A stretch of DNA of 64,000 nucleotides from Anaerolinea sp. (lineage in GTDB: Bacteria; Chloroflexota; Anaerolineae; Anaerolineales; Villigracilaceae), in NCBI GenBank assembly GCA_020723805.1, contig DYID01000018.1, positions 1 through 64,000 on the forward strand, read 5' to 3'. The position numbers and the translations under genes were made by a program. This document shows, piece after piece, positions 55,813 through 60,353 of the stretch. Each line of letters opens with the position of its first letter. The stretch's first letter is position 1. Below the pieces are notes generated by a model that saw only the letters and a program-made list of their open reading frames with translations, was not told where the DNA came from and did not search any database.

Positions 55813-56301
55813 ATGCTTAGAAACCCGCTCTTCATTGCCATCGCTGCGGCGGTCATCGCTCTGGGGACGTTCGTGTTCGTGACCGATGCTCCCGCCTACG
55901 CCGGCAAATCGTCCGAGACGTGCGCGAATTGCCATGTGATGGATTCGATGTACGAGAATTACTATCACAGCGCGCACCAGCCCTGGGCGGAATGTTCGGA
56001 CTGCCACCTGCCCCACGATAACATCGTGAACTATTACATCGAGAAGGGGCGGCAGGGCATGCACGATGTGTACGTCTTCAGCACCGGGCAGACGCCTGAA
56101 GTCATTCGCGCAAACGAACATTCCAAGCAAATCATCCAGGGGAACTGCATCCATTGCCACGAGGATGCAGTGGAGACCATCATGATGGGCGCCCAGCCGT
56201 TCGACCGCTACTGCTGGGAATGCCATCGCAACGTCGCGCATGGACCGCGCGGCGCGTCCATCGTCCCGTATCAGGACTCCAACTTCTACCCCGTCAAGTA
56301 A
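55813..56301 (+). CDS. nrfH: Cytochrome c nitrite reductase small subunit NrfH
   Basis: 162 residues. Membrane-anchored tetraheme quinol dehydrogenase that passes electrons to NrfA. N-terminal signal anchor (about 5-25), then four CxxCH haem sites: CANCH (37-41), CSDCH (61-65), CIHCH (112-116) and CWECH (134-138). Met43 in CANCHVM corresponds to the haem 1 methionine ligand region of NrfH. ATG at 55813 has AAAAGGTG upstream. 48 bases precede nrfA. Confidence 0.95.
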   Translation: MLRNPLFIAIAAAVIALGTFVFVTDAPAYAGKSSETCANCHVMDSMYENYYHSAHQPWAECSDCHLPHDNIVNYYIEKGRQGMHDVYVFSTGQTPEVIRANEHSKQIIQGNCIHCHEDAVETIMMGAQPFDRYCWECHRNVAHGPRGASIVPYQDSNFYPVK

Positions 56302-56349: not shown

Positions 56350-57711
56350 ATGAACACGTTGAAAAAGTATACGACCCTCATCCTGGTCGGCATCATTATC
56401 GTGCTTGCCGCCGTGTTGACGGGCGTGCTGATCTTTATAAAAAACCAGCCTGTGGAGGAAAGAGGTTTTCAGCCGCTGGTGGAAATTGCCCCCATGGAAC
56501 CGAACTCGGAACAGTGGGGTATCAACTTCCCCAACCAATACACCACCTTTCTCAAGACCAAGACCAACAACATTGACACGACCTACGGCGGCTCGTCCCA
56601 GTTCTCGTGGCTGGAGCGCGATCCGCGCCAGGTCATCCTGTTTGCGGGGTATCCGTTCAGCAAGGATTACAACGACGACCGCGGTCACGCCAACGCGCTG
56701 GAAGATGTGCGCGCCACAAAACGCCTGAACCTCAACGACGAGGATCCGAAGCACACGCCCGCCACCTGTTATTCCTGCAAATCTGCCGACAACCCAAAGT
56801 TATGGTCGGAGATGGGCATGGAAGCCTACGACAAGATGTCGTTCAATGAAATGACGCCGAACATCAACAACACCATCGGCTGCGCCAACTGCCACGAAGC
56901 CGGGACGATGCGGCTCATCGTCACCAACCCCGCGCTGAAAGAGGCGCTCGAAGCCCAAGGCAAGGACTGGACGACCTTCACCCGTCAGGAAATGCGCACG
57001 GTCGTCTGCGCCAACTGCCATGTGGAATACTATTTCGCGGGACCGGGCAAGTATCTGACCTTCCCTTGGGAGAACGGTACCGACATCTACTCGATCATCG
57101 AATACTACAATGAGCTTGGTTTCAAGGATTGGGACTATCCCGGCACGGGCACGCCCACCCTCAAAGCACAGCACCCCGAATATGAATTCTTCACAGCCGG
57201 CTCCACGCACTACAACGCGGGCGTCTCCTGCGCCGACTGCCACATGCCCTACGTCCGCGACGGGGCGGCGAAATACTCCACGCACGATGTCCACAGCCCC
57301 CTGCTCAATCCCCAGCAGGCTTGCGGACAGTGCCACACCGACACGGAATACGTCGTCCGCCGCGTGAACGCCATTCAGGATCAGGTTGCCACCACCAAGA
57401 TCGCCACCGAAGACGCCATCATTGACGCCATCAACGCCATCAAACTTGCCGCCGCCAACCCCAACGCCGACCAGGAACTGCTGAACCAGGCGCGCCAACT
57501 GCACCGCGAAGCGCAGTTCATGTGGGACTTCGTCTCCGCCGAAAATTCGACGGGCTTCCACAACCCCGAATACGCGCTCAAGATTTTGGCAGATTCCACC
57601 AACCGCGCGCGGCAGGCGCAGATGCTCGCGGCGCAGTCGGTGAACGATATGTCCCTGCTGGAAACCGGCATCTACGACAAGATGGACCCCAAGCCGACAC
57701 CGGCACAGTAA
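56350..57711 (+). CDS. nrfA: Ammonia-forming cytochrome c nitrite reductase NrfA
   Basis: 453 residues. Six-electron reduction of nitrite to ammonium, exterior side of the membrane. Signal anchor (about 9-30). Active-site haem CYSCK (140-144) with Lys as ligand, then CANCH (178-182), CANCH (220-224), CADCH (294-298) and CGQCH (325-329): pentahaem, as expected. Catalytic Arg111 (DRGHA), Tyr226 region (CHVEYYF) and QHPE (274-277) with His287 nearby are in place. AAAAGGAG ribosome-binding site. Ends before a strong terminator. Confidence 0.97.
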   Translation: MNTLKKYTTLILVGIIIVLAAVLTGVLIFIKNQPVEERGFQPLVEIAPMEPNSEQWGINFPNQYTTFLKTKTNNIDTTYGGSSQFSWLERDPRQVILFAGYPFSKDYNDDRGHANALEDVRATKRLNLNDEDPKHTPATCYSCKSADNPKLWSEMGMEAYDKMSFNEMTPNINNTIGCANCHEAGTMRLIVTNPALKEALEAQGKDWTTFTRQEMRTVVCANCHVEYYFAGPGKYLTFPWENGTDIYSIIEYYNELGFKDWDYPGTGTPTLKAQHPEYEFFTAGSTHYNAGVSCADCHMPYVRDGAAKYSTHDVHSPLLNPQQACGQCHTDTEYVVRRVNAIQDQVATTKIATEDAIIDAINAIKLAAANPNADQELLNQARQLHREAQFMWDFVSAENSTGFHNPEYALKILADSTNRARQAQMLAAQSVNDMSLLETGIYDKMDPKPTPAQ

Positions 57712-57770: not shown

Positions 57771-57806
57771 AAGAGACGCTGTTTACATGAACAGCGTCTC
57801 TTTTGT
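57771..57806 (+). terminator. Rho-independent terminator after nrfA
   Basis: AAGAGACGCTGTT pairs perfectly with AACAGCGTCTCTT across TACATG and is followed by TTTTGTTATT. Confidence 0.93.
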
Positions 57807-57815
57807 TATTACAAC

Positions 57816-57844
57816 TTGACAATAAATAGCAAAATTGTTATATT
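57816..57844 (+). promoter_or_regulatory. Consensus promoter of the DeoR-NosL fusion gene
   Basis: TTGACA at 57816-57821, 17-base spacer, TATATT at 57839-57844. The spacer and -10 lie within CAAAAT-TGTTAT-ATTTTG, a small palindrome. Confidence 0.8.
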
Positions 57845-57856
57845 TTGAAAGAATTC

Positions 57857-57868
57857 GTTATAAATAAC
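57857..57868. promoter_or_regulatory. Possible operator before the DeoR-NosL fusion gene
   Basis: GTTAT-AA-ATAAC palindrome six bases before the ATG, just after the predicted start site. A repressor bound here would block transcription, which fits autorepression. Confidence 0.45.
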
Positions 57869-57873
57869 AAAAA

Positions 57874-58419
57874 ATGACAAAATTACCCCCGACCGAGCGC
57901 GAAACCCATATTTTGGAGATTCTCCATGCAAAGGGCAGTGCTTCGATTGAAGAGCTTGCCCAAGCGTGCTCGGTCTCGACCATGACGATCCACCGCGACC
58001 TCCAACGTCTCGAAAGAACAGGACACATCCAAAAAAGGCATGGAGGCGCAGTGCTGGCAGATCGCAAAACCGGCAGCGTCCCTTGCGCCATGTGCGGCAA
58101 AGTCACTACCGGCAAGCAGACCTTTCTGGTCCATCTTGCAGACGGGGGACAAAAAACAGCCTGTTGCGCTCACTGCGGCCTGATGCTTCTGAACGCCGAA
58201 AAAGACGTATGGCAAGCCATGACCATGGATTTCCTGCATGGACACATGATCAGCGCCCAGCAGGCAATCTACCTGCTCGGTTCCGACCTGAACGTTTGCT
58301 GTGTGCCGACCATCCTAACCTTTGGCTCCCGCGCAGAAGCCGAACGCTTCCAAAAAGGGTTCGGTGGAACACTTGCGACCTTGGAAGAAGCCACCCTCTC
58401 CTTATTGGGGGCGCATTAG
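57874..58419 (+). CDS. DeoR-type HTH regulator fused to a NosL-like (copper-binding) domain
   Basis: 181 residues. N-terminal DeoR winged helix (about 5-60): ILEILHAKGSASIEELAQACSVSTMTIHRDL and the GGAVL end of DeoR HTH domains. The usual sugar-phosphate sensor domain is missing. It is replaced by a region with C71xxC74, CC97-98xxC101, an MTMDFLHGHMISAQQAIY segment and CC142-143VP...FGSRAEAERFQKGFGG, which follows the NosL/DUF layout of Cu-binding proteins. Likely a metal- or thiol-responsive repressor. Neighbours nrfA and a PCu(A)C gene support copper or redox sensing. Confidence 0.75.
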   Translation: MTKLPPTERETHILEILHAKGSASIEELAQACSVSTMTIHRDLQRLERTGHIQKRHGGAVLADRKTGSVPCAMCGKVTTGKQTFLVHLADGGQKTACCAHCGLMLLNAEKDVWQAMTMDFLHGHMISAQQAIYLLGSDLNVCCVPTILTFGSRAEAERFQKGFGGTLATLEEATLSLLGAH

Positions 58420-58605
58420 AAAATATAAACTCATCCAAAGGAACAGAAATTTTTGCGCTCAGACATCACCCTCGCGCGGTTAGACAACACCTGCTGATGA
58501 TTTCGGCGGGCATGTTTGGCATGACTCTGAATGAATTGGTTTTTCGTCAGCAGTAATCCACCGGCATCCTGTCTTGGAGCCAAATCACCTAAAGGAGAAA
58601 ACTTG

Positions 58606-59064
58606 ATGAAAAGAACTTTTGCACTGTTTTTTGCGCTGGCACTTACACTGAGCGCCTGCGGCAGCCCCAAGCAAGGCATCGAAGTCCGCGATGTCTGGGC
58701 GCGCTCATCCACACAAGGGATGAACGGCGCCGTCTATTTTGTCATTGAGAATCACAACAGCCAGGCAGACGAATTGATCGGGGCGGCATCCGACATAGCA
58801 GAGGTGGTCGAAATCCATGAAAGCAAAATGGAAGGCGACGTGATGATGATGAACCAAGTCGAAGCGGTTGCGCTGGAACCTTCTGCCGTGGTCGAATTCA
58901 AGCCGGGCGGCTATCACGTCATGCTCATCCGCCTCACGCGTGACCTCAAGGCAGGCGACGAAATCGAAGTCACCCTCCACTTCAAAAACAGCCCCGACCT
59001 CACCATCAAAGCAATGGTCAAGGATGCAGACGGAATGCAAAACATGGGCGGGCACAGCCCATAA
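58606..59064 (+). CDS. PCu(A)C-type copper chaperone lipoprotein
   Basis: 152 residues from ATG at 58606, AAAGGAGAA upstream. Lipoprotein signal with lipobox LSAC. PCu(A)C domain: RDVWARSSTQGMNGAVYFVIEN, then VEIHESKM (His and Met ligands), VMMMNQVEAVALEP (Met), and FKPGGYHVMLI (His, Met). Cu(I)-binding proteins of this family deliver copper to cytochrome oxidase CuA in other bacteria. Extracytoplasmic, anchored. 186 bases after the NosL-fusion regulator, with no clear promoter between, so probably cotranscribed. Confidence 0.88.
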   Translation: MKRTFALFFALALTLSACGSPKQGIEVRDVWARSSTQGMNGAVYFVIENHNSQADELIGAASDIAEVVEIHESKMEGDVMMMNQVEAVALEPSAVVEFKPGGYHVMLIRLTRDLKAGDEIEVTLHFKNSPDLTIKAMVKDADGMQNMGGHSP

Positions 59065-59149: not shown

Positions 59150-59596
59150 ATGAAAAAGATAACCTTATTGTTACTGACCCTGATCCTTGCCGCCTGTTCG
59201 GTTGGCGGGAGCGAACTCAGCCGCAATCAAGCCAAATGGCAGGAGGCGGGCGTCACCCACTACCGCTTTCAGTTGAGCGTCACCTGCTTCTGCCTGTTTC
59301 GCAGTCAAATGCCGCTGACCGTCGAAGTGAAGGACGGCGAAATCGTTTCGATGACCGACGTCAACGGCGAGGCGTTCCCGGTGGACGACCCGATGAGCGA
59401 CTTGGTGATGAAGCACGCCACGATTGAACGCATCTTTTCTGAACTGGGGTCTGATTCCGTCCAAGCAGCCGACCGCCTCACGATAGACTTTGACCCCACC
59501 TACGGTTTCCCCAGCGAGGTTGCCATAGACTACATCGAGCTTGCCGCAGACGATGAGTTGTACCTCTCGGTTTCAGGGTTCGAGCCGCTTCAATAA
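59150..59596 (+). CDS. DUF6174-type lipoprotein
   Basis: 148 residues. ATG at 59150 with a GGAAGGAG ribosome-binding site. Lipoprotein signal KITLLLLTLILAAC. The body RNQAKWQEAGVTHYRFQLSV, then TCFCLFRSQMPLTVEVKDGEIVSM and LTIDFDPTYGFPSEVAIDYI, matches the DUF6174 pattern (W...G...Y.f......F.........vt V..G.v.......G......D....G.P........d.). Two closely spaced Cys (TCFC) may bind metal or form a disulfide. Function unknown. The neighbouring PCu(A)C gene hints at envelope redox work. Confidence 0.8.
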   Translation: MKKITLLLLTLILAACSVGGSELSRNQAKWQEAGVTHYRFQLSVTCFCLFRSQMPLTVEVKDGEIVSMTDVNGEAFPVDDPMSDLVMKHATIERIFSELGSDSVQAADRLTIDFDPTYGFPSEVAIDYIELAADDELYLSVSGFEPLQ

Positions 59597-59631: not shown

Positions 59632-59670
59632 AAACGTCCCGAAGGCTACAAACCTTCGGGACGTTGCCTT
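59632..59670. terminator. Bidirectional terminator between DUF6174 and Crp/Fnr genes
   Basis: ACGTCCCGAAGG / CCTTCGGGACGT stem around CTACAAA, flanked by AAAA and TTGCCTTT. It serves the plus-strand gene and the minus-strand Crp/Fnr gene. Confidence 0.8.
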
Positions 59671-60353
59671 TAGTTGTACGGCTGTGTCCACTGGCGGAAG
59701 ATTTCTTCATCGGCAATTTGGATGCGCCGGTCCTCTACGCGAATCGCCCCGCTTTTTTCCAGTTCCTTGAGCGAGCGGGAGACCACCTCGCGCACGGTTC
59801 CCAGCCGCGCCGCCAGTTGTTCCTGCGTCCAATGCGGGCGCGGTCCCCGTTCCATTTCGGCGATGAGCCGCGCCAGCCGATGCGTGACCTGGTAAAACGC
59901 CATCTCGCTGACCTTGCCCACCAGATTGCGCAGGTTCTGACCAAACTTGCTCAAAATTTTCAATGCAAATTCGGGATTGGTCTTGACGAGTGCGCGCAGG
60001 GTTTGTGCGTCCACCACCCAAACGCGCGTCGTCTCGAGCGCCTCCACGTTGACCGGGTTGGTGCCGCCGTCGAAGGCAGGGACTTCGTTACAGGTTGCGC
60101 CTTCGGTAAGGACGGCAATGATGTACTGCCGTCCCTGAGGAGAGACGCGGTAGAGTTTGACGCTCCCGCTTGCGATGATGTGCAAGCCGGCGCATTCGTC
60201 GCCTTCCCAAAACAGGACGTCGCCGCGTTCGTATTCGCGCAACTGGGTAACTGCCGTCAGGTCTTTCAGCACAGATTCGGGGAGTTCATCGAAATAAGGA
60301 TTGACCCGCAGGGTTTTGAGTTTTTCGCTCTTGGAAACCTCAATGAGTTTCAT
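59670..60353 (-). CDS. Crp/Fnr family transcriptional regulator
   Basis: 227 residues. cNMP-binding-type beta-roll (about 20-115; the double-psi stretch LREYERGDVLFWEGDECAGL), dimer helix (about 125-160), and winged HTH (174-208; HWTQEQLAARLGTVREVVSRSLKEL). Recognition helix residues Arg188, Glu189 and Arg193 equal the Crp trio that reads TGTGA. Only two Cys (54, 88), no N-terminal Fe-S cluster motif, so not a classical Fnr. Ligand unknown. Candidate activator of nrfHA, whose promoter has TGTGA-N6-TCACA. Confidence 0.9.
   Translation of the reverse strand: MKLIEVSKSEKLKTLRVNPYFDELPESVLKDLTAVTQLREYERGDVLFWEGDECAGLHIIASGSVKLYRVSPQGRQYIIAVLTEGATCNEVPAFDGGTNPVNVEALETTRVWVVDAQTLRALVKTNPEFALKILSKFGQNLRNLVGKVSEMAFYQVTHRLARLIAEMERGPRPHWTQEQLAARLGTVREVVSRSLKELEKSGAIRVEDRRIQIADEEIFRQWTQPYN

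Follow-up and report, generated by a model that had tools for sequence, protein, structure and literature searches.

The first 64,000 nucleotides of contig DYID01000018.1 from Anaerolinea sp. (assembly GCA_020723805.1), referred to throughout as the window, carry a gene for a 181-residue protein that most likely belongs with the YcnK-type repressors and senses copper, and that probably controls its own gene and the adjoining gene for a PCu(A)C copper chaperone. Regulators of this kind are already known from Bacillus subtilis, and by sequence the window protein appears to be a Chloroflexota member of the group; the interest of the locus is the spread and rewiring of YcnK-type regulators in that phylum. 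The full explanation preferred here, in which a YcnK-family copper-responsive repressor silences both itself and PCu(A)C at its own promoter, with the copper-loaded form being the one that represses, is assigned a probability of about 0.8. The two genes concerned are as follows.

57874–58419, + strand: putative YcnK-type regulator, 181 amino acids, with a DeoR winged helix at residues 9–64 and a NosL domain at about residues 64–181
58606–59064, + strand: PCu(A)C copper chaperone, a 152-residue lipoprotein (E 2.5e-35), with the lipobox LSAC recognised by eye

Domain composition and predicted fold

The initial annotation of this DNA described a DeoR helix-turn-helix (HTH) domain fused to a NosL-like domain, with the customary DeoR sensor replaced by a cysteine-rich domain of NosL layout, and both statements were borne out by Pfam and by the predicted structure. 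Pfam searches placed HTH_DeoR at residues 9–64 (E 9.5e-16) and NosL at residues 122–174 (E 4.7e-7, 30.6 bits against a cut-off of 24), the latter match spanning just the second half of the NosL profile, whereas the fold comparison described below spans residues 66–177. No DeoR sugar-phosphate sensor domain was present among the 18 Pfam families matching the regulator at E ≤ 0.01, and at the same threshold HTH_DeoR was found in all 42 of the aligned members and NosL in 40 of them. The N-terminus is the HTH domain itself, without a signal peptide, so that the protein does not qualify as an exported lipoprotein of the NosL kind. The cysteine motifs are C71xxC74, C97C98xH100C101 and C142C143xP145. 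The annotated positions of the seven cysteines are correct when counted from the ATG at 57874, which is the start of the gene; position 57857, previously given as the start, falls within an upstream palindrome.

An AlphaFold2 model of the regulator, calculated from a 42-sequence alignment comprising the window protein and 41 of the 45 other fetched places (L040, L064, L068 and L069 were omitted), had a mean predicted local distance difference test score of 93.6 and a predicted template modelling score of 0.68. Foldseek ranked the Shewanella denitrificans NosL structure 7og7 first in the PDB (E 4.2e-6; template modelling score, normalised to target length, 0.70) and MerB2 second (5c17; E 8.3e-5), the latter with a root-mean-square deviation (rmsd) of 14.4 Å over the whole model. 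With VIA-align 2, model residues 66–177 were superposed on NosL 7og7 with Z 15.6 and an rmsd of 1.9 Å over 112 residues. Below the NosL entries, residues 1–66 matched many winged-helix proteins, including the metal sensor CadC (Z 11.1, rmsd 1.6 Å, 63 residues), with unrelated proteins lying within about 1 Z of it. NosL 7osf was also matched by sequence profile at E 4.4e-6, and no match spanning both domains was present among the best 60 of the 98 matches returned by the PDB sequence search. A normal DeoR sensor fold, which had been named beforehand as the outcome contrary to the annotation, did not occur, the C-terminal part of the model having the NosL fold.

Kinship with B. subtilis YcnK

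A control search with the NosL family returned matches in B. subtilis and Haloferax volcanii, the first of which pointed to YcnK as a relative. YcnK is described as the copper-dependent repressor of ycnKJI in B. subtilis (PMC8424229, PMC10991351, PMC12154828, PMC13344008), with an HTH domain that binds upstream of ycn (PMC12154828), and is characterised as a DeoR-family repressor of copper uptake when copper is in excess; expression of ycnKJI is reported to rise in copper starvation and to fall when copper is replete (PMC8424229). The presence of a NosL-like C-terminus in YcnK is suggested by the B. subtilis match and by a ycnKJI-type gene of Bacillales. In two Bacillales loci, L235 and L238, the regulator gene is followed by genes for a protein of approximately 560 residues and one of 206 residues, which at L235 were identified by Pfam as CopC-CopD-YtkA and DUF1775, the make-up described for YcnJ and YcnI (PMC12154828, PMC8424229). 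On the basis of gene order and domains, both loci are probably of the ycnKJI type. The L235 regulator has a strong HTH_DeoR match (E 8e-16) and a NosL match (E 6.3e-4, 20.5 bits) below the cut-off of 24; it aligns with the window protein over 178 residues with 30% identity (E 5e-28), and all seven cysteines and His100 are in register between the two proteins.

The previous statement that no characterised regulator has this build is therefore wrong, since YcnK has the same build, and the candidate interpretation of a new regulator class without known relatives is ruled out by YcnK together with the ycnKJI-type Bacillales loci. What survives of the earlier proposal of a new class of copper or redox repressor is an autoregulated, probably copper-sensing repressor tied to copper delivery, which we infer, as opposed to the novelty of the class. 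A literature search found no paper combining NosL, DeoR and copper; Hirooka 2012 and Chillappagari 2009 are reportedly the primary papers on YcnK.

Conserved cysteines and distribution of the fusion

Scanning of 155 loci yielded 148 full-length proteins, of which 119 were distinct. The seven loci without a full-length protein comprise five that were fetched for stand-alone NosL (L242–L246) plus L040 and L095, which were filtered out for their long runs of X; in L040, a run of N had created an apparent fusion of 1072 residues, which was discarded as spurious. Among the 119 distinct proteins, C74, C98, C101, C142 and C143 are invariant, C71 and C97 are each present in 118, and H100 is present in 117. 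Since 80 loci from genome contigs were found with a search pattern that included CC.HC, the columns of C97, C98, H100 and C101 were partly selected for, whereas conservation of C71, C74, C142 and C143 is free of this effect. For a YcnK-type sensor, the near-invariant cysteines single out specific residues as candidate Cu(I) ligands.

The architecture is not a product of chance. Matches to the regulator at E ≤ 1e-5 were found in 83 of 200 related genomes, 39 of which, including the genome containing the window, carry the full-length fusion, in 46 places, the remainder matching in the HTH part alone. In a sample covering the phylum, the fusion was present in 7 of 301 genomes, again including the window's own. 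The scan of genome contigs returned 186 relatives, and the best 80 of these carry Chloroflexota labels almost throughout, the exceptions being two Acidimicrobiia-labelled metagenome-assembled genomes (MAGs) and one isolate, Bacillus sp. REN16; in the order to which that isolate belongs, the fusion was detected in 22 of 150 genomes. In a maximum-likelihood tree built quickly from the 119 proteins, with a midpoint root as a drawing aid only, the 22 Bacillales rows fell into one group on a long stem (support of 100 by the Shimodaira-Hasegawa-like approximate likelihood ratio test), and the window protein paired with a sequence of the same genus (support 99) amid the Chloroflexota rows. These data suggest that YcnK-type copper repressors extend beyond Bacillus and are widespread among the Chloroflexota genomes found. 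The fusions on the two MAG contigs labelled Acidimicrobiia (L105 and L121) were placed within a Chloroflexota group (support 90), reflecting either horizontal transfer or misbinning of the contigs.

Gene neighbourhood

The initial annotation's copper chaperone downstream of the regulator is confirmed as the PCu(A)C protein listed above. No promoter- or terminator-like site was listed on the + strand in the gap between the two genes, and PCu(A)C is probably the regulated gene, forming a single transcription unit with the regulator. A copper-handling gene was located within 3 kb at 96 of the 119 fusion loci compared with none of 20 canonical DeoR control loci, and the copper reading gains support because of this difference. 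The copper-neighbour profiles used for this count were derived from gene clusters of the fusion loci themselves, with one member each of PCu(A)C, SCO1, DsbD_2-cupredoxin and HMA being checked against Pfam, as were the seeds of CopCD, DUF1775 and YtkA, and the CopA cluster being named by eye only. The control loci are DeoR genes that match in the HTH alone, from 18 of the 200 related genomes and with no Bacillales among them; 11 of the 20 are from genomes that also hold the fusion, and several are shortened by contig ends.

PCu(A)C was the commonest copper neighbour (72 of the 119 loci), followed by SCO1 (24), YtkA (13), CopCD (10), DUF1775 (7), DsbD_2-cupredoxin (6), HMA (5) and CopA (4). The proportion of loci with a copper gene was 76/97 outside Bacillales and 20/22 within. 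The genes concerned differ between the two sets, with PCu(A)C at 72 of the 97 loci outside Bacillales and none of the 22 within, DUF1775 at none and 7, and YtkA at none and 13, respectively. Within 1.5 kb of the regulator, PCu(A)C lies downstream on the same strand at 53 of the 72 loci, divergently upstream at 13, convergently at 4 and upstream on the same strand at 2. Many loci of the window's clade have their entire gene order in common and are not independent. The remaining neighbours in the window are listed below.

55813–56301, + strand: NrfH, small subunit of cytochrome c nitrite reductase (TIGR03153, 144.3 bits against a cut-off of 134.2)
56350–57711, + strand: NrfA, cytochrome c552 nitrite reductase (PF02335, E 2.9e-132)
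59150–59596, + strand: DUF6174 lipoprotein (PF19671, E 4.4e-30)
59670–60353, − strand: Crp/Fnr-family regulator (cNMP_binding E 2.9e-23, HTH_Crp_2 E 2.5e-13)

The nrfHA genes were considered as regulated genes but gained no support, since a terminator-like hairpin separates them from the regulator and the linkage is found mainly in a clade that shares gene order. In different genomes, nrfHA lies near the regulator-PCu(A)C pair on either side (e.g. L027 and L029), so the linkage has outlived local rearrangement, even though NrfA is not a copper enzyme. The DUF6174 lipoprotein, which contains a Cys-Phe-Cys motif, is often found beside the regulator in the window's clade (cluster 9, at 9 of 46 loci) and may be a further metal-related partner. 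At five loci with a different recognition helix (the ATxYR class described below; L051, L054, L055, L058 and L059), a nearby gene encodes a membrane protein that joins DsbD_2 to a cupredoxin domain; several of these loci also encode an HMA-domain protein and a P-type ATPase that was assigned to CopA by eye.

Promoter and candidate operator

The region upstream of the regulator contains the following elements, among them the promoter and palindromes of the earlier description, which were duly found.

57771–57802, + strand: terminator-like hairpin after nrfHA, a 13-bp perfect inverted repeat with a T-rich tail
57816–57844, + strand: sigma-70-like promoter TTGACA-N17-TATATT, with 11 of 12 consensus matches
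57835–57842, + strand: candidate operator half-site TTGTTATA, on the −10 element, forming part of a repeat and of an inverted pair
57855–57870, + strand: proposed operator TCGTTATAAATAACAA, a near-palindrome of 16 bases, identified by pattern and motif enrichment

The hairpin separates nrfHA from the promoter, which is placed just before the regulator open reading frame and is overlapped by TTGTTAT/ATAACAA sites. Promoter-like sites are no commoner in the scanned 4.1 kb than in shuffled sequence (two against 2.1 expected), and the promoter alone is therefore weak evidence. The half-site element, TTGTTAT at 57835, recurs upstream of relatives, and when the genome assembly (3.69 Mb, 54 contigs, 97.2% complete) was searched for TTGTTATNNATAACAA with up to one mismatch, 57855–57870 was the sole match.

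The upstream regions of the 119 proteins were then grouped by recognition helix, with expected motif counts derived from 50 dinucleotide shuffles. Upstream of the 82 loci with an xTxHR helix, the type to which the window regulator belongs, GTTAT/ATAAC occurred 117 times against 28.5 expected (highest shuffle 36); for the 14 loci with an ATxYR/S helix, GATAA/TTATC occurred 32 times against 7.0 (highest shuffle 14); and for the 19 loci with an MTxYR helix, GTGAA/TTCAC occurred 19 times against 5.7 (highest shuffle 11). Four of the 119 loci lie outside all three classes. The upstream data fit autoregulation through a shifting operator, with the effects of helix and lineage unseparated. Helix classes with differing upstream motifs make the operator directly testable, and the three classes, with half-sites GTTAT, GTGAA and GATAA for xTxHR, MTxYR and ATxYR/S, respectively, constitute a possible natural specificity series.

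Proposed mechanism

The model proposed here builds on features that were computed, namely the two domains, the fold, the conserved cysteines, the ycnKJI-type kinship, the copper neighbourhood and the class-specific upstream motif. To these, DNA binding is added by inference from the fold, the palindrome and YcnK, and every later step, including the identity of the metal, co-transcription, the sign of the response and an oxidase as client, by analogy with YcnK. The DeoR winged helix would occupy the TTGTTAT/ATAACAA half-sites that lie on the −10 element and about the transcription start, such that the bound regulator would shut down its own transcription and that of the PCu(A)C gene downstream. 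Cu(I) would be bound in the NosL domain by the cysteines of the CxxC, CCxHC and CCxP motifs, and the apo and copper forms are presumed to place this domain differently against the winged helices. The copper-loaded form would repress, holding the operator over the −10 element, as reported for YcnK at high copper, whereas copper shortage would lift repression and allow PCu(A)C to deliver scarce copper, perhaps to the heme-copper oxidase encoded in the genome. PCu(A)C is described as a chaperone linked to metalation of oxidases (PMC7558416).

The genome contains one CsoR-family gene, one COX1 gene and two SCO1 genes, one of them on the COX1 contig, and no other NosL-family match at the cut-offs used. 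CsoR, COX1 and SCO1 were also matched in B. subtilis in controls of the same searches, and a CsoR-family gene is present in 101 of 121 genomes. The notion that the regulator senses copper by default, for want of CsoR, is ruled out by the CsoR-family gene. The genome may reasonably be expected to split these tasks in the manner of B. subtilis, with CsoR serving efflux and YcnK uptake or delivery.

Several observations weigh against the proposed repressor. At 23 of the 119 fusion loci, none of the listed copper genes lies within 3 kb; some of these (L048, L068 and L069) are on short contigs, but others (L041, L042 and L056) have ample flanks. In the window, the nearest other neighbours, NrfHA, are haem rather than copper enzymes, and no YcnJ/YcnI-like genes (CopCD, DUF1775) were found within 3 kb. 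Four additional sites with two mismatches raise the genome total for TTGTTATNNATAACAA to five, the count also obtained with a reversed control pattern, and no recognised copper gene lies alongside any of the four; a wider regulon in this genome was rejected on these grounds, and with no second operator found in the genome the regulon may be a single unit. The xTxHR class is also rich in GATAA/TTATC (52 against 25.8 expected, highest of 50 shuffles 37), so that motifs and helix classes separate uncleanly, and the classes largely follow lineage, Bacillales making up 19 of the 19 MTxYR loci, 3 of the 82 xTxHR loci and none of the 14 ATxYR/S loci; the motif counts moreover come from related sequences rather than independent events. 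No metal- or DNA-binding data were found for any Chloroflexota member, and nowhere did the literature search join YcnK with Chloroflexi.

Alternative explanations

The sign of the YcnK response to copper is told differently across the literature, and the opposite arrangement, in which copper frees the protein from DNA and PCu(A)C rises with copper, was considered. Cu+ has been proposed to antagonise YcnK (PMC13344008), contrary to the sign adopted above, and the HMA-domain protein and P-type ATPase adjoining some ATxYR-class loci would suit induction by copper. However, the reported behaviour of ycnKJI in starved and replete cells, repression by YcnK under excess copper, and the role in oxidase metalation described for the chaperones PCu(A)C and SCO1 all argue for repression by the copper-loaded form, and derepression by copper is considered rather unlikely. 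A sensor with the same DNA-binding part whose cysteines respond instead to thiol redox state, through disulfides, or to another soft metal (Zn, Ag or Hg) seems more improbable still. Seven near-invariant cysteines suit either use, and the neighbouring NrfHA and Crp/Fnr genes suggest anaerobic respiration; against this, copper handlers adjoin four-fifths of the fusion loci (the 96 counted above), the C-terminal fold matches a copper chaperone, and the characterised relative, YcnK, is reported to respond to copper.

Two further readings have next to no chance of being correct. An ordinary DeoR sugar-phosphate regulator, with PCu(A)C adjoining by chance, would account for the strong HTH_DeoR match but is at odds with the absence of a sensor domain at the Pfam threshold given above, the NosL fold of the C-terminal domain and the lack of copper genes near any canonical DeoR control locus. 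An organomercurial lyase of the MerB kind, in which a winged helix likewise precedes a NosL-type fold, would agree with the Foldseek match to MerB2 along the model and with a profile match over both domains at a probability of 89.8%, but that superposition has the large rmsd already noted, global alignment of the C-terminal domains gave a probability of only 0.9%, and the neighbourhood is one of copper genes. The genome contains no MerB family match at E ≤ 0.001, and a mercury lyase function was rejected on this basis; at the same threshold a match was found in 40 of the 301 sampled phylum genomes, 37 of these being over the cut-off.

Possible common origin with MerB

It is conceivable, if doubtful, that YcnK-type repressors and MerB descend from one two-domain ancestor consisting of a winged helix and a duplicated treble-clef domain. 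The local profile comparison cited above, of 119 YcnK-type with 16 MerB proteins, had an E-value of 1.8e-6 over both domains; its probability was 80.3% when the helix domain was compared alone and 42.5% with the C-terminal domain alone. The corresponding global comparison gave 88.7% for both domains, but the value for the C-terminal domain counts against shared ancestry, as do the probability of 31.9% obtained with a smaller alignment and the fact that the winged helix alone is a common fold. In the profile alignment, WCALD of MerB lies near Cys74 and the next MerB cysteine near Cys98; the register of cysteines first proposed was not reproduced. MerB proteins from Chloroflexota genomes (L163–L187) were observed to have a winged helix followed by a NosL-type domain, like YcnK-type regulators. 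If the common origin were correct, the N-terminal winged helix of MerB would be a relic of a metal-sensing repressor, its active-site cysteines would derive from the regulator's copper site, and Chloroflexota, holding both families, would be a place to look for intermediates. The origin of MerB is said to have been treated by Kaur and Subramanian in 2014, as cited in PMC4999995 and PMC8261052, and YcnK and MerB are both mentioned in five papers found by the literature search. A kinship in fold between NosL and MerB is described in PMC4999995.

Comparison with known systems

Among known systems, YcnK appears closest to the window regulator, having in common with it a DeoR-type winged helix, a NosL-type C-terminal domain and a copper locus setting, in a genome that likewise encodes a CsoR-family protein. 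The differences lie in sequence, the regulator being approximately 30% identical to a ycnKJI-type Bacillales gene whose clade sits on a long stem; in the neighbours, which are YcnJ and YcnI for YcnK and PCu(A)C here; and in the recognition helix and commonest upstream motif. With DeoR/GlpR repressors the DNA-binding domain is shared, the sensor domain being swapped for NosL. NosL itself, the copper chaperone of nitrous oxide reductase (PF05573; PDB 7og7 and 7osf), shares the fold of residues 64–181 and, in its second half, the sequence profile, but is described as an exported lipoprotein, in contrast to an HTH fusion without a signal peptide that bears a CC motif in the aligned second half.

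MerB (PF03243; PDB 5c17) has the same order of domains, a winged helix and then a NosL/MerB-like domain, but is an enzyme, whereas the regulator has no MerB family match and only a weak sequence relation to it. The archaeal HTH-TRASH copper regulators of the CopT/CopR type likewise join an HTH to a treble-clef-derived metal domain. Those proteins have a single TRASH domain and an Lrp-type HTH, as opposed to the NosL domain and DeoR-type winged helix of the window regulator. An origin of NosL from duplicated TRASH-like domains is described in PMC4999995.

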